IMG/VR virus record: IMGVR_UViG_3300009506_000006
Span: 1 to 64,000 of that record
Length of the DNA stretch: 64,000 nucleotides
Direction: 5' to 3' (one strand)
Source of the DNA: a virus
Both the position numbers and the translations under genes were made by a program. Below, piece after piece: positions 7,425-57,174 of this stretch (the first letter of the stretch is position 1; every line of letters begins with the position of its first letter). The notes beneath the pieces were generated by a model, which saw only the letters and a list, made by a program, of their open reading frames with translations, had not been told where the DNA came from and searched no databases.

Positions 7425-7679
7425 TATTTCTTTAATTTTAAGCACAGCTAAATATTCAAAGAAATTTTTTAGTACGTCGTGGCAGTTATAACGTTCAACC
7501 CATATTTGCGCAACTCGTTTGGAAAATGGTGTTGCTTCAACTGGATTCCTTGTCAACGAGAAATAAATAGTTTCTCCATTTGCTTCGAAAACGTAATGCT
7601 TAATTCTTCGAAAATATCCGTAATCTTCTGAGTCAGTTTTGTTTTCCCACTTAATTATATAAAGTTTCTGCGATTTCAT
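7410..7679 (-). CDS. KERLL-family small protein, copy 1
   Basis: 89 aa. Starts MKSQKLYIIKW and ends LAVLKIKEILLRK, matching the shared start (K-x-W/Y-I-V-K) and end (YxKERLLGK) of five other genes to 9740. Not recognised outside this array. Its 3' end overlaps the convergent portal gene by 15 bp, with no terminator visible between. Confidence 0.65.
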   Translation of the reverse strand: MKSQKLYIIKWENKTDSEDYGYFRRIKHYVFEANGETIYFSLTRNPVEATPFSKRVAQIWVERYNCHDVLKNFFEYLAVLKIKEILLRK

Positions 7680-7680
7680 T

Positions 7681-7962
7681 TCATATCAACTGGTGCGGTA
7701 AAAAGCAGCAATAGTGCCCCCATTCGTTGATAGCCAGACAGTAGTTATCTGTCGTCATAGCTATTGCTAAACATGGCATATTGACGATCGATCCGTCAGA
7801 TTGCTTAATAAATAATCCGCATCGACTGTTTTCGATTGCCGAAAATATCACAGTAAACTCCGGATTCTGGTGTGCCAGTTTCAGAAAACGCTCAATTTTT
7901 TTCAGCTGGAATTTTGGTATGCAGAGCAACTCGATAACAATCTTTCTTTGGCATATAAACAA
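7681..7962 (-). CDS. hypothetical protein
   Basis: 93 aa open frame with plausible composition (FSAIENSRCGLFIKQSDGSI, then NEWGHYCCFLPHQLI). Its first 20 codons overlap the end of the next KERLL-family gene, so the true start is probably internal and cannot be fixed. Not a member of the array by sequence. Confidence 0.5.
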   Translation of the reverse strand: MFICQRKIVIELLCIPKFQLKKIERFLKLAHQNPEFTVIFSAIENSRCGLFIKQSDGSIVNMPCLAIAMTTDNYCLAINEWGHYCCFLPHQLI

Positions 7963-8177
7963 ATAGTGGTTTCAAACCTCGCGTTTTCTTCATTACATCT
8001 GGTAGCAATGGCAGTAGCTTGCTGTTTTGTCATATGTACAGCGTCTTTGAGATGTCTCCCCCAATAAACATTTCCTAAACCTGTGCGACGTGTCTTTGGA
8101 TTTGTGTCTATGCAGTAGTATGTCGCTGGCTGTGCTATATAATATGTTTTGACGATCCACAACTTTTGATGCTTCAT
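7902..8177 (-). CDS. KERLL-family small protein, copy 2
   Basis: 91 aa. Begins MKHQKLWIVKTYYI, almost identical to the start of copy 3. It contains TICLYAKERLL near its C-terminus, but a 10-residue tail (SSCSAYQNSS) replaces the usual GK stop, as if a stop codon was lost. Its ATG overlaps the stop of copy 3 (ATGA), indicating translational coupling. Confidence 0.65.
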   Translation of the reverse strand: MKHQKLWIVKTYYIAQPATYYCIDTNPKTRRTGLGNVYWGRHLKDAVHMTKQQATAIATRCNEENARFETTICLYAKERLLSSCSAYQNSS

Positions 8178-8413
8178 TTGCCAAGCAGTCTTTCTTTAGC
8201 ATAAAGTTCTATGGTGAAACTATAGTTCTTATAGTTAGAGGACCATCCATAAAATTTTTGCGTCTGACTTTTCAACTGTTCTGCTTCTTGTAGATTAAAT
8301 AACTGTGCATTCTTCAGACTCATTCTCCATAAACGGTCTTTACTATAATACCAGGCAAATTTCGGATAGGTTTCTTTAGTGCATTTTATTACCCACAACT
8401 TTTGATGCTTCAT
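8174..8413 (-). CDS. KERLL-family small protein, copy 3
   Basis: 79 aa. MKHQKLWVIKC start, central aromatic segment (FAWYYSKDRLWRMSL), and IELYAKERLLGK end. The start ATG overlaps the preceding stop as ATGA, which fixes it at 8413 rather than the longer frame. Confidence 0.7.
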   Translation of the reverse strand: MKHQKLWVIKCTKETYPKFAWYYSKDRLWRMSLKNAQLFNLQEAEQLKSQTQKFYGWSSNYKNYSFTIELYAKERLLGK

Positions 8414-20248: not shown

Positions 20249-20608
20249 TTAGTTTTGTTTATTTTCAGGAATCCAACGTGCCTGGTTATTACGTATTTCT
20301 ATTTTGAGATTTTGAGGAGCCATTGCCTCATTGACTTTTTGCTCCAACGTTTTACCCTCTATGATCTCAAGCGCCTTGCTATTTAACCATAATTTGAACC
20401 GATTGCTAGCGACCAGACGTTCAAGTGCTAACCTACGGTTTTGTGTTTGGCTACGCTCGCTGCGCGACTCGCCGACAGCTTTTGATTCTTTATGAATAAT
20501 GCGCACACCGGTTTCAACCTTATTTTGATGCTGCCCACCCGGTCCGCCTGAACGAAATGTTTGAATAACAAAATCTTTTTTAGTTATTGAGAATATATGC
20601 TGTTTCAT
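20249..20608 (-). CDS. class I release-factor-like peptidyl-tRNA hydrolase (RF-1 domain)
   Basis: 119 aa. FRSGGPGGQHQNKVETGVRI at residues 18-37 is the GGQ catalytic loop of RF1/RF2 and of ArfB-like rescue factors; a basic patch follows (ESRSERSQTQNRRLA). It lacks the codon-recognition domain, so it is more like a ribosome-rescue hydrolase. It has its own promoter with operator just upstream. Confidence 0.85.
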   Translation of the reverse strand: MKQHIFSITKKDFVIQTFRSGGPGGQHQNKVETGVRIIHKESKAVGESRSERSQTQNRRLALERLVASNRFKLWLNSKALEIIEGKTLEQKVNEAMAPQNLKIEIRNNQARWIPENKQN

Positions 20609-23698: not shown

Positions 23699-23894
23699 TA
23701 GTTATGTCCTCCTTTTTATGTTTGAAGACAACACCTTGGCTCCATGACTCGATTCCCATTTGCTCCAGTATGGCATCGATTAATTGCAAGATTTGTTTGT
23801 TTTCTTCCCGCTCTATTGATAGCCAAACGGTGATAATGACGTTCCACACGCCAAGCACGATCAACGCAAATAATATCCATTCTGTTGCCGTCAT
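23691..23894 (-). CDS. small membrane protein
   Basis: 67 aa. Residues 4-26 (EWILFALIVLGVWNVIITVW) form an N-terminal transmembrane span; the rest is soluble. Confidence 0.6.
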   Translation of the reverse strand: MTATEWILFALIVLGVWNVIITVWLSIEREENKQILQLIDAILEQMGIESWSQGVVFKHKKEDITIV

Positions 23895-24235
23895 TCTAGA
23901 CTTCCTTTCAGTCGAATATATCTGACAGGTATGTTGTGCCGAATAGCTGTCTGGATTTCAATGTTAACACCGAACGACTGTGTCCAACCAGGCAAGCACA
24001 GCACAATCAGAACATCGCATTTGGTTAGCCAGTACAGATCCTGCTTGAGCCAGAAGTTGTGAGACAGATGGTTGCCTATGTGATCCGCAATCGGTACGGA
24101 GTGCGACAACGGACTGAAGACAATCAAGCCGCGGCGCATGAGATAGCCGGCGACTTTGTTGGCCATGGCGACACGATAAACCATGGTGTCTGGGCTGGAT
24201 GAACTGTAAGGGCACGCTAAGTAAACGGATTTCAT
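23891..24235 (-). CDS. DUF1937 family protein (nucleoside deoxyribosyltransferase-like fold)
   Basis: 114 aa: YLACPYSSSSPDT start, LIVFSPLSHSVPIA, CDVLIVLCLPGWTQSFG, and E near residue 93 match DUF1937, whose fold is related to nucleoside 2-deoxyribosyltransferases. Might act on nucleotides; no direct evidence. ATGA-coupled to the small membrane protein gene. Confidence 0.8.
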   Translation of the reverse strand: MKSVYLACPYSSSSPDTMVYRVAMANKVAGYLMRRGLIVFSPLSHSVPIADHIGNHLSHNFWLKQDLYWLTKCDVLIVLCLPGWTQSFGVNIEIQTAIRHNIPVRYIRLKGSLE

Positions 24236-25069: not shown

Positions 25070-25149
25070 ATAAGTATCAAAAGCCTAAAAATTTCAAAAT
25101 TTTCTAGACATGTCTAAATGACAAGTCTTAAATATATTTAGCCTACATA

Positions 25150-25417
25150 CAGGCACCTGCGTATTTCCGGGCGGGCGGGACCTTGCCTCGTCCCGGACTT
25201 GGCATGTGATCATGGCAGTACCTACAGGCACCTGCGTATTTCCGGGCGGGCGGGACCTTGCCTCGTCCCGGGCTTGGCATGTGATCATGGCAGTACCTAC
25301 AGGCACCTGCGTATTTCCGGGCGGGCGGGACCTTGCCTCGTCCCGGACTTGGCATGTGACCATGGCAGTACCTACAGGCACCTGCGTATTTCCGGGCGGG
25401 CAGGACCTTTTTCCAGA
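25150..25417. repeat. 75-bp tandem direct repeat, three and a half copies
   Basis: The unit beginning AGGCACCTGCGTATTTCCGG starts at 25151, 25226, 25301 and 25376: exactly 75 bp apart, nearly identical, GC-rich. Each unit contains CGGGCGGGCGGGACC and a GTGATCATGGCAGTACC segment. Open frames across it simply reflect the multiple-of-three period. The fourth copy diverges after about 42 bp. Confidence 0.9.
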
Positions 25418-25798
25418 CGGACAGGACCCGCGGCTGAGCTTCCAGGGCGAGCGAAGCGAGCCCCAGGCCGCAGCCATCTTGAGTGGCAACAGGCCTCCGC
25501 ATGTTGGCTGAGTGCGTACGGCAGTTGACGACGTTCTATAGATTAGGCTGTTCAGAGCGGGCCATTGGGTGGGGGGGGGATAGGGGCAGCCGAAGCTTTC
25601 GAGAACCATGGCAGGTCAGGGGGAAGGGGGCGGGTTTTGAGGCGCTAATAAAGCCTGACAAATTTGTTTAGACAGATTGGTAACGATTATTTATGTCAAA
25701 GTCGAGCGCCTCAAAAGGGGCCTCTCTTCCCCCTTCCCCCTACCACGGCATTATTATTTATTGTTTGTCATTATAACCAAGGTGGTATGCCCAGACAT
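25418..25798. other. non-coding segment with a very long interrupted inverted repeat
   Basis: GGGGGAAGGGGG (25619-25630) pairs with 25729-25740, and TTTTGAGGCGCT (25635-25646) pairs with 25705-25716: 24 perfect pairs enclosing about 58 nt. A GGGT-G9-ATA tract lies at 25567-25582. No credible gene. See findings. Confidence 0.75.
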
Positions 25799-25835
25799 AA
25801 AAAAAGCCGAGACCCTGTGTAGGGATCCCGGCTTT
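25799..25835 (-). terminator. terminator after the Csx16-like gene
   Basis: AAAGCCG (25803-25809) pairs with CGGCTTT (25829-25835), with CCCT/AGGG inside, followed on the minus strand by a run of seven T. Confidence 0.85.
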
Positions 25836-25887
25836 GTGTTATACACCGGCCGCCATCCATCCCGCCCTGGCCGGTGAGGTTCTATAA

Positions 25888-26649
25888 CTATAATTTGCGT
25901 ATCTTATACGTTACGGGAGCAGCAGCGTACTTCCGTACTTGCTCCAGTGACAACTCCACTCCCCGAAGTTCCTTGGGCAATTCGGGCAGCGGGACTTCCG
26001 TGAAGCTCTCGCACAGACAGGAAAGCGAATGCGGCAGGACACCGCACACGCGCTTACCTGTGACGTCGATACCGCTGGCGTGCTCGATAACCTGCGTAGT
26101 TTCATTGGCGAGCCCGGTTTCCCGAAGGTATTCAACTAGCCCGGGATGCCGGGTAACGACCAATTCGACTGCAGGCCGTTGACTGGTTATGGCGGCTTTG
26201 GCAGCTGCCTGGGCCTTTACTATCACCCGGGCTGCTTCCGCCTCGGAAAGCAACTGCTTTAGCATCGAGAGTGAGGTTTCGGTTTCGATGCTGAAAGACG
26301 ATTGATTTCCGAAGAACGTTCCGAAAGCCAGATACCGCGGCGAGCCATTGATCAGGTAGACCGGGCGCTTACCGTTGGTACCCCGCCAAAGTGTGTAAGT
26401 AGGACTGTCCGGGTTAGTGCCCTCTGGATACTGAGTTAACGTCCGACCATGGAGAGCAGCCACATCGACGAGCGCCCTGACTGGGGCGTTGTGGTTGATC
26501 TGGCGATTGGCGAGCGCCTTGATGCAGGCCTCGCCGATAACTGTGAAAAAGGCGTCCGAAGCGTCCTGCGCTCCGGGGTCTTTGTAGTTAATTCCGATAT
26601 TATGCAGGACACCGGACGCTGCGGATGCAGTCGGAAGGTACAGCTTCAT
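25888..26649 (-). CDS. protein with C-terminal Csx16-like (ring nuclease) domain
   Basis: 253 aa. Residues about 158-253 match the order of the CRISPR-associated Csx16 (VVA1548) family: VVTRHPGLVEYLRETGL, a degenerate IEHASGIDVTGKRVCGVLP, then PELPKELRGVELSLEQV and YAAAPVTYKI. Csx16 has been reported to degrade cyclic tetra-adenylate, the messenger of type III CRISPR. The N-terminal 155 residues are unrecognised (SPTYTLWRGTNGKRPVYLIN; Ala-rich helix near 140-155). On a phage this domain could act as an anti-CRISPR; that is inference. Monocistronic: own terminator on each side. Confidence 0.65.
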   Translation of the reverse strand: MKLYLPTASAASGVLHNIGINYKDPGAQDASDAFFTVIGEACIKALANRQINHNAPVRALVDVAALHGRTLTQYPEGTNPDSPTYTLWRGTNGKRPVYLINGSPRYLAFGTFFGNQSSFSIETETSLSMLKQLLSEAEAARVIVKAQAAAKAAITSQRPAVELVVTRHPGLVEYLRETGLANETTQVIEHASGIDVTGKRVCGVLPHSLSCLCESFTEVPLPELPKELRGVELSLEQVRKYAAAPVTYKIRKL

Positions 26650-26783
26650 TTCTAGTCTCCTTTCTGCGGAGTTTTAGAACCTTTCTGTCCGCGAGGGTTC
26701 CGTCCTGCTCGCGCCCCGGAGCTGCCCCGGAGTATTGCGGCCCAGTTTCTCCGTCGACTTGGGCTTGGTCGCGGAATTTCACA

Positions 26784-26824
26784 GACAAAACAAGAGCCCG
26801 CTCTATTTTACTAGAGCGAGCCCT
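26784..26824 (-). terminator. terminator after the 565-aa gene
   Basis: On the minus strand GGGCTCGCTCTA, a short AT loop, TAGAGCGGGCTC, then TTGTTTTG. Separates the Csx16-like gene from the upstream operon. Confidence 0.8.
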
Positions 26825-26832
26825 TGGCTGAT

Positions 26833-28530
26833 TTAATAATGACTCGTCACCCAAGCCTGATACTCAGGCTCTTCGGGTGGTGGTGGCAGTGGTGGCAGTG
26901 GTGGTACTTGCGGCTGCTGCTTGGCTGCTTTATCCCGGGCGGTGAACCAGGCTTCCCGGATCAGCTCGAACTCGTTATCCGAAGGCCGATCTTTGAGAGG
27001 CTGGCCTTTGAGATCGCAACCAGTTTTCCTGGCATTGATGATCCAGGCGGCTGCGAACTTGATCTTGGACGCTGGGAGATTTCGCAGCCGTGATATTAGC
27101 GCACGGGCAGTACCGGGTTTATCGACGACTACCGACTGCGTAAGCCGGAACTCTCTATCGGGATACTGAGCTGCCTGCTGCCGGTTGGTCGTTAGCCAGA
27201 CCGTGTTAGCACGCAGCTGCGGCTTGTGCATGGCGGCTTGCGCTGCGTGGATCAGCGCGATTTTGCACCGGCGATATTCCCAGCGCCAGAAATTGAGCTG
27301 TTTGAGTGACTGGCGCTCATGTTCACTCCAGCCTCCAGCTGGTGTGCGCACCCAGGAGCGGGTAAGCTTCTGAGCAAAGACGAGCTGGCCGAATTTCTTC
27401 AGCCGGACCAAGCTGTCCTCACTACGCAGCTGGCGGATTACCTCCTGGAACCTGCGCGTGCAGGATTTCAGATGAGCGTCCTCTGCCTTGTTATCGTCCT
27501 GGTTGATCCGGGCGTAGCGGAACAGGTCCGGGGTACCGAAACCACGGTCAAGGACGAACTTGCCGTCTTCAGTGTGGAACCCATACGACTCGAACACCGC
27601 CGCAACATCGTGCTCCAACATTGCGGGTACCGGATCGGCCGCTAGCATCTGCAACTGCCGTTTCGTCAGACGCTGCCAAGCCTGCTCGAGGTCTTCGATG
27701 TCGTTAATAACGATGTCGTCCCAGGATTCCGGGTCGACGTCACCGTCTGAAGCCTCGGTTTCGATTTCGTCCTCGGCGAACCACGGATTTTCTTCGCCGA
27801 ACGGTCGCAGATCCCGGATTAACGAGAATGGTTTCTCGTTCACGTGAACCTCATCACTGACGAGTTCGCCAGCAAGCCCTTCGAAATACGGAAGGGCTTT
27901 GTCGACCCCGCGTTTCTGCACCCAGCGGATAAATTCAGGATGCAGTCTTCCGGAATCGTCAATGATGCCGAAGAAGTCAATGAGATCTTCGGCTTGGCCC
28001 AACGTGCAGCTGCATTGGCGGGCGACGACTTCAACCCGCTGCAGCTTCGAAATCTGCGGTACGTTCGTGCCCGGACGCTGCACGTTGCCGCTGCCGTCCC
28101 AGCACTGTTCGAAGATCTGCCGATCGAGCTGACTGAGATCCGAACAATGCTCGGACATGCCCCAGAAGCCTTCACCGAAGGCTTGAGCTGCGGGAACCTC
28201 GCGAGCGTTTAACCGGGCTGCTTCGTCGCGAGCCTGGGTCCAGAATCTGAATCCAGCCGACTCGACTGACCAGCGGCCGCAGGATGGGCATGTCGCAACC
28301 ACGAAGTGCTGATCGCGAAAGATATGCGGCGCATCGAACTGCAAATCCATGCCGCATTTAATACAGACTTCCGGCGCGCAATTTTCTTCCAGCATGCGCC
28401 GGTTATCGTGGTTAAACACGTGGCCGTCCGCGGTGTAGTCCGGTGGCTCAGCTCTGTCGAATTCAGGAGCTTGGTAACAGTTAGGCGGAGCGGCTTGACA
28501 AAGCTTCAAAGATTGTCTATAGGAATTCAT
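26833..28530 (-). CDS. large zinc-finger protein of unknown function
   Basis: 565 aa. Residues about 55-85 hold VCIKCGMDLQF and ATCPSCGRWSVE, a treble-clef-like zinc site. The middle is acidic (ETEASDGDVDPESWDD near 255), the C-terminal third is basic and aromatic (SLKQLNFWRWEYRRCKIAL), and the end is a poly-Pro segment (QVPPLPPLPPPPEEPEY). I do not recognise the family. Zinc finger plus basic helical region would suit nucleic-acid binding. GC-rich codon use, like its neighbours. Confidence 0.75.
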   Translation of the reverse strand: MNSYRQSLKLCQAAPPNCYQAPEFDRAEPPDYTADGHVFNHDNRRMLEENCAPEVCIKCGMDLQFDAPHIFRDQHFVVATCPSCGRWSVESAGFRFWTQARDEAARLNAREVPAAQAFGEGFWGMSEHCSDLSQLDRQIFEQCWDGSGNVQRPGTNVPQISKLQRVEVVARQCSCTLGQAEDLIDFFGIIDDSGRLHPEFIRWVQKRGVDKALPYFEGLAGELVSDEVHVNEKPFSLIRDLRPFGEENPWFAEDEIETEASDGDVDPESWDDIVINDIEDLEQAWQRLTKRQLQMLAADPVPAMLEHDVAAVFESYGFHTEDGKFVLDRGFGTPDLFRYARINQDDNKAEDAHLKSCTRRFQEVIRQLRSEDSLVRLKKFGQLVFAQKLTRSWVRTPAGGWSEHERQSLKQLNFWRWEYRRCKIALIHAAQAAMHKPQLRANTVWLTTNRQQAAQYPDREFRLTQSVVVDKPGTARALISRLRNLPASKIKFAAAWIINARKTGCDLKGQPLKDRPSDNEFELIREAWFTARDKAAKQQPQVPPLPPLPPPPEEPEYQAWVTSHY

Positions 28531-56093: not shown

Positions 56094-57086
56094 ATGGCTG
56101 AGACCATGAAACTCTATCGCTATTTCAATGGCTATTGGTATGTGCGCCGACCGGACGGAGCCCGCAAATCGCTCAAGACTCGTAATGCTGATGAAGCTAC
56201 TCGCATTTACAAAGCCATGCAACGTGCTGTACTTCAAGGCAAGCTCACTGCCCTGGATTCTGAACGCCGTGTAACAATCGCGCAGCTGCAACCAGAATTT
56301 TTTGACAGCCGTGATGAACTATCCGCTGATACTGTGGCTGCTTACCGCCTGGCATTTAAACAGCTGGCTGAATTTTTCGGCGGATCCACCCTAATTTCGC
56401 GTATAACTGCACGACGTTTATCTGAATTCAAATATCTGTGCCGTGCTCGCGGTGTTACAGATGTTTCAATTAACACCTATCTGCGCCATATTCGCAGTAT
56501 TTTGAACTTTGCTTTTAACTGTGGTTATCTCAAAGACAAGGTATTGGTTCCGATAATTCCAATCGGTGTGCGTCACCCGCGAATTTTGACTCGGGACGAA
56601 ATTGATCTGTTGTTATGTCATGCTGCACATTGCCGATCACACATGACACCGATCATTGCTTTTGCATTATGGACTGGCTGCCGACGTTATGAAATCTGGT
56701 CTCTGTCATGGGAACGCGTGCGTAAAGGCTACTGCACTGTACTTGGCAAGGGACGCCGCGAGCGCACGATTCCGTTGCTGCCGGGAGCTGTGGAAGCTAT
56801 GGGCTCACACAAAGACATTGGCCCGGTATTTTGGCATCCGAACGATATCGACCGATATTCTAAGGAATTTAAGCGTTTGGCACGTGACTGCGAACTCGAA
56901 GGTGTGAGCTTCCACAAATTGCGCCACACCGCAGCCTGCAACATGTTGGCGGCCGGCGTGGAATTGCGTTACGTGCAAGAGATGCTGGGACACAGCCAAG
57001 TAAACACAACTCAGATCTACGTGCAAGTCGTGCGCGATAAACTCAAAGAACAGCTGACTGAAAAATTTACGGAATTTGTGCTTTAA
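56094..57086 (+). CDS. int: tyrosine integrase
   Basis: 330 aa. Arm-binding N-terminus, core-binding domain about residues 70-160 (LSADTVAAYRLAFKQLAEFF), catalytic domain with Arg in ALWTGCRRYEIWSLSW, Lys in VLGKGRRERTIPL, HxxR in SFHKLRHTAACNML, His in EMLGHSQVNTTQ and Tyr in IYVQVV. It recombines attP (58592-58636) with a host tRNA-Lys gene. Confidence 0.95.
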   Translation: MAETMKLYRYFNGYWYVRRPDGARKSLKTRNADEATRIYKAMQRAVLQGKLTALDSERRVTIAQLQPEFFDSRDELSADTVAAYRLAFKQLAEFFGGSTLISRITARRLSEFKYLCRARGVTDVSINTYLRHIRSILNFAFNCGYLKDKVLVPIIPIGVRHPRILTRDEIDLLLCHAAHCRSHMTPIIAFALWTGCRRYEIWSLSWERVRKGYCTVLGKGRRERTIPLLPGAVEAMGSHKDIGPVFWHPNDIDRYSKEFKRLARDCELEGVSFHKLRHTAACNMLAAGVELRYVQEMLGHSQVNTTQIYVQVVRDKLKEQLTEKFTEFVL

Positions 57087-57096
57087 ATATGCAATT

Positions 57097-57174
57097 TGGT
57101 GATCCTGGTGGGAATCGAACCCACGTTACCGGGATGAAAGCCCGACCTCCTTTCCAATTTGGATGCACAGGATC
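57097..57174 (-). tRNA. tRNA-Glu(TTC)
   Basis: Acceptor GATCCTG/CAGGATC, discriminator A, CCA encoded. Anticodon loop CTTTCAT, anticodon TTC. T arm GTGGG-TTCGATT-CCCAC. The D stem is short (three to four pairs). Confidence 0.88.

Follow-up and report, generated by a model that had tools for sequence, protein, structure and literature searches.

Csx16 (Cas_VVA1548) belongs to type III CRISPR loci, and the purified protein is a cA4-specific ring nuclease that degrades cA4 and not cA6, with full degradation of cA4 at a 100-fold substrate excess (PMC12409355). An earlier note on the DNA studied here likewise stated that Csx16 has been reported to cleave cyclic tetra-adenylate. A CARF-like alpha/beta fold has been published for Csx16, which has also been compared in print with a viral Crn2 homologue; among 28,114 phage genomes, only two were counted as carrying it (PMC12409355). 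These two genomes are probably those of the Methanobacterium viruses Drs3 and PhiF3, the only annotated phages in which Csx16 was found by tblastn. Phage-borne Csx16 is already known, if barely, from two archaeal viruses. Here we describe a fused form encoded in a window of 64,000 nucleotides, which comprises positions 1 to 64,000 of the IMG/VR record IMGVR_UViG_3300009506_000006 (107,865 bases).

The phage nature of this record, as previously assumed, is borne out by genes for a major head protein, the terminase large subunit, a portal protein, and an integrase. Matches of its terminase and helicase are spread over many hosts, and no DNA match to the first 12 kb was found among GenBank phages. 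The gene of interest is a 253-aa ORF that occupies exactly positions 25,888 to 26,649 on the minus strand, a strand that the earlier note did not give (Table 1). A good Shine–Dalgarno sequence, AGAAAGGAGACTAGAA (also given as AGAAAGGAG), precedes the ATG at 26,649, indicating that translation starts at the N-terminal domain and that the 253-aa long form is most likely made. The sole candidate near the domain edge for an internal start of a stand-alone Csx16 is a TTG at L163, at which no Shine–Dalgarno sequence is seen. The previously noted isolation of the gene by terminators is supported by hairpins on the minus strand at both sides, so that the gene is probably a single transcription unit; no sigma-70-type promoter was found directly upstream of it.

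Table 1. Features of the locus, with positions numbered along the window
Feature	Position	Strand	Basis or remark
253-aa gene, N-terminal domain fused to Csx16 domain	25888..26649	-	ORF, profile match, Shine–Dalgarno
N-terminal domain, residues 1-158	26176..26649	-	helix-helix-strands-long helix in low-confidence models
Csx16 (PF09652) domain, residues 164-249	25903..26160	-	profile match; TRH (166-168), H190, G203, P206, R229, G230, E232 conserved
Intrinsic terminator-like hairpin, downstream of the 253-aa gene	25803..25835	-	13-pair stem then T-run
Intrinsic terminator-like hairpin, closing the 565-aa upstream gene, ahead of the 253-aa gene	26791..26826	-	15-pair stem then TTTTG
565-aa upstream neighbour	26833..28530	-	CxxC pairs suggest zinc ribbon; inside high-GC stretch
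High-GC stretch, GC 0.569	25100..28500		about 3.4 kb; probable acquired cassette

Profile comparison with the Csx16 family identifies the C-terminal part of the protein as a Csx16 domain. Residues 164–249 match PF09652 (Cas_VVA1548/Csx16) with an E value of 1.7e-14 and 54.2 bits, above the Pfam gathering cut-off of 25, and three Csx16 models of PADLOC also match (E 4.5e-14), as does the PADLOC fusion model CARF2--CARF_HEPN_CSX16 over residues 147–252. A profile built from 26 viral relatives, a few of them near-duplicates and the protein itself left out, gives 131.5 bits (E 9.9e-40), while the best of 2000 shuffled Csx16 domains reaches 14.8 bits with the same profile. Among the positions kept in at least 88% of relatives, 23 of 24 are identical in this protein, including T166-R167-H168, H190, G203, P206, R229, G230, and E232. 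Both the Csx16-like C-terminal domain that the earlier note had proposed for a phage protein and the motifs that it quoted are present. No AcrIII-1 (DUF1874) profile appears among the Pfam matches up to E 10.

The NCBIfam model of Csx16, TIGR02620, has a cut-off of 46.35 bits, which the 253-aa protein misses with a score of 19. An orphan plasmid protein of Deinococcus proteolyticus annotated as Csx16 (24.8 bits) and the copies of Drs3 and PhiF3 (45.3 and 45.5 bits, respectively) fall under this cut-off too; TIGR02620 is therefore a narrow model, and a score below its cut-off lowers only the claimed equivalence to the VVA1548 subgroup. With 253 aa and an N-terminal domain, the protein is outside the size of small stand-alone Csx16 (about 90–110 aa), which is typical for Csx16 and not strictly defining, as fusions occur elsewhere. 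As for linkage to type III cas genes, a search of the 107,865-base record turned up no Cas10. Such absence is expected for a copy borne by a mobile element, and the Csx16 domain family is defined by sequence.

The Rossmann-like fold anticipated earlier is recovered by structure prediction. In AlphaFold2 models based on 26 sequences, residues 158–253 form a compact five-stranded alpha/beta domain with a pLDDT of about 97, with strands at 163–165, 186–188, 200–203, 215–218, and 246–249 and helices in between. Fold searches with this model returned weak matches to AcrIII-1 (6scf, Z 4.4, 2.9 A over 74 residues), Crn1 (7z55, Sis0455, Z 4.0, 3.1 A over 90 residues), the CARF domain of Cad1 (Z 3.9), and Sso2081 (Z 3.1), and these ring nuclease and CARF matches (Z 3.1–4.4) are tied with unrelated Rossmann methyltransferases. 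The matches to AcrIII-1 and Crn1 recall the viral Crn2 homologue with which Csx16 has been compared in print, and the C-terminal model is consistent with the published CARF-like fold of Csx16, without proving it.

The N-terminal part of about 155 residues was called an unknown domain in the earlier note, and our searches agree. No relatives were identified in Pfam, NCBIfam, PADLOC, or PDB sequences, with only chance-level matches in PHROGs (E 0.03); none were found by tblastn among phages or plasmids, by a close-relative scan of IMG/VR, or by phmmer across the collected loci, nor in 20 viral records carrying Csx16 relatives. Profile searches of residues 1–158 revealed no signature of HEPN, CARF, or any other effector. 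The pLDDT is 30–55 over residues 1–120, and a long predicted helix (residues 124–157) leads into the Csx16 domain. Given models of low confidence, and a fold search with the lone model that gives no interpretable result, we do not claim a new fold for this domain. It could assemble, tether, or localise the ring nuclease, or could itself carry the main function.

The gene lies in a stretch (25,100–28,500) whose GC content of 0.569 exceeds that of the phage (0.463, sd 0.030) and of all 209 sliding windows of 3.4 kb, which suggests that the stretch is a probable acquired cassette; no clear transposon inverted repeats were found at its borders. The GC3 is alike in the two parts of the 253-aa gene (0.64 in the N part and 0.61 in the C part), so that the whole fused gene may have been acquired at once, together with its 565-aa neighbour. 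No relatives of this neighbour were identified in Pfam, PHROGs, phages, or plasmids, or when IMG/VR was scanned for close relatives. At the border of the stretch, on the downstream side of the Csx16 gene, a GC-rich unit of 75 bp is repeated in tandem (3.5 copies, 97% alike, 25,144–25,409), and a 28-nt imperfect inverted repeat (75%), the arms of which are 58 nt apart, is intergenic at 25,619–25,732 near the left edge. Elsewhere in the window, the minus strand encodes a phage-borne factor for peptide release or ribosome rescue, 119 aa long and with a release-factor domain of the RF-1 (GGQ) type (20,249–20,608, E 2.5e-18), and a 114-aa DUF1937 protein (23,891–24,235) with weak likeness to nucleoside 2-deoxyribosyltransferases. 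An Rfam tRNA match missed by ARAGORN (57,100–57,174, minus strand) adjoins the integrase gene (56,094–57,086) and is possibly a tRNA-derived attachment site, and a 22-bp repeat, TGTATACAATTTGTTGCACTGA, is present in 4.6 perfect copies at 34,057–34,158.

Scans of IMG/VR with the sequence of this protein alone returned nothing, whereas alignment-based scans revealed relatives on 29 contigs (the paired hits L016/L022, L018/L038, and L019/L046 each stem from one contig, and three hits, L034, L046, and L047, are fragmentary). The nearest of these relatives shares 69% identity over the Csx16 domain. Most are stand-alone proteins of 95–110 aa near phage genes, and two have possible N-terminal additions, one zinc-ribbon-like (L041) and one in-frame and HNH-like (L028). 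In the latter (7,665–8,288 of its sequence), a frame with a zinc ribbon and an HNH-like part continues in frame into the phage Csx16, which may have its own start. The viral contigs otherwise share little. Among 20 viral records with Csx16 relatives, one terminase family was matched in 13 (E ≤ 0.001, some weakly) and another in one further record, and Cas10 was found in none of the 20.

Plasmids also carry orphan genes of this kind. The best plasmid match by tblastn is on pDEIPR02 of Deinococcus proteolyticus (44% identity, E 5e-10), where no annotated cas gene occurs within 8 kb. The plasmid pMESIL02 of Allomeiothermus silvanus encodes a tandem Csx16 (261 aa) and a Csx16 fusion of 671 aa. In the Allomeiothermus sequences, the fusion (L014, 99–2,114, minus strand) has Csx16 at its N terminus, and the tandem Csx16 (L005, 7,992–8,777) likewise lies at the N terminus, with a second unit devoid of the TRH motif. 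Using narrow patterns, we found a single locus, from Meiothermus, in contigs of cellular genomes. In the phylogenetic tree, the protein groups with the phage copies L022, L023, and L024 (support 99/99) inside a phage/plasmid clade (96/97); L021, the copies of the archaeal viruses, and the two CRISPR-linked sequences from Allochromatium all fall outside it. CRISPR-linked Csx16 is sparsely sampled in this tree, so the clade may not be exclusive to mobile elements.

Taken together, the 253-aa gene probably encodes a phage counter-defence protein whose Csx16 domain cuts host cA4 and so keeps cA4-activated effectors off. Since the conserved residues are kept, the Csx16 domain should bind cA4, the product of the Cas10 of a host type III CRISPR system, across a probable dimer and cut it to linear products; by family membership, the protein should share this activity with the published relative. 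Once cA4 was removed, the cA4-activated effectors of the host would not be switched on, and the N-terminal domain would add oligomerisation, partner binding, or localisation, and not the catalytic step. The conserved positions, together with the demonstrated cA4 specificity of Csx16, make a type III anti-CRISPR the most likely role, and we infer its use in infection from the phage location of the gene, the lack of Cas10 in the record, and the precedent of AcrIII-1. A bolder version is rather doubtful as a whole: a two-part anti-CRISPR, whose N-terminal domain brings the nuclease to the Cas10 complex of the host or to an effector, or builds it into filaments, with cA4 thereby destroyed where it is made, plus a large, previously unrecognised phage/plasmid branch of Csx16 serving as anti-type-III weapons.

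Several other readings deserve consideration. The Csx16 domain might be a sponge that binds cA4 tightly with slow or no cutting, the N-terminal domain giving a higher-order assembly. Some Csx15 members are indeed non-enzymatic, oligomerising cA4 sponges (PMC13148439), and the clade of this protein lies far from the Csx16 that the NCBI model represents, but all family-invariant residues are kept, the tested Csx16 turned over its substrate completely even in large excess (PMC12409355), and Csx15 is a different family that is not seen in phages (PMC13148439), which together leave a sponge improbable. We think a self-limiting effector similarly unlikely, in which an N-terminal toxic or signalling effector would be switched by cA4 and turned off by Csx16, for use in inter-phage competition or lysogeny. 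Csx16 is fused to CARF-HEPN effectors elsewhere, as the PADLOC fusion model matched above illustrates, and a fused ribonuclease–ring nuclease is known (PMC7293037); however, residues 1–158 bear no such signature, the phage record has no Cas10, and the close relatives are nearly all stand-alone Csx16.

The integrase of the phage fits a gene that acts in the prophage state, lowering type III self-targeting or leaky cA4 in the host and not countering CRISPR at the time of infection, much as cellular ring nucleases serve as an off-switch for the type III system (PMC12409355). This is more improbable still, given that the gene occurs in many viral contigs sharing little else, some of them perhaps virulent. 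Finally, the divergence of the clade and the existence of ring nucleases of broad specificity such as Crn4 (PMC12830947) would allow the domain to cut another cyclic nucleotide, for example a CBASS messenger; we regard this as very improbable, since the tested Csx16 is cA4-specific (PMC12409355) and the conserved positions are kept. Removal of cA4 as a type III anti-CRISPR is the reading that we prefer.

What is new here is the fused architecture, together with the bacteriophage/plasmid clade and its size, none of which we found in published work in a search that covered part of the journals and preprints. With relatives on 29 contigs of uncultivated viruses, Csx16 would be a viral strategy that is common and not rare, and some of these copies score too low in curated annotation to receive a name: the relatives scored with TIGR02620 lie under its cut-off. 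The fused N-terminal domain offers a concrete example of an extra part on a viral ring nuclease and, if active, the protein would join AcrIII-1, AcrIII-2, and Crn4 as one more type III anti-CRISPR family.

Compared with the Csx16 of type III CRISPR loci, the protein scores above the Pfam cut-off and keeps the conserved residues; it differs in being a phage gene away from cas genes, in belonging to a divergent clade below the TIGR02620 cut-off, and in its 155-residue N-terminal domain. Drs3 and PhiF3 likewise carry a viral Csx16, annotated as CRISPR-associated, but they are archaeal viruses with stand-alone proteins of 103–104 aa that share 32–33% identity (tblastn), score 45 bits with TIGR02620, and fall outside the bacteriophage/plasmid clade. 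With pMESIL02 of Allomeiothermus silvanus it shares a mobile-element Csx16 within larger proteins, although there Csx16 is at the N terminus and the partner region is unrelated. Phage and plasmid Crn4 bears N-terminal extensions of 60–80 aa (PMC12830947), shorter than the one described here and on an unrelated fold. The viral ring nuclease AcrIII-1/Crn2 belongs to a different sequence family, and it resembles our protein in a similar alpha/beta fold, as far as the weak matches indicate, and in the proposed degradation of cA4 against type III CRISPR.
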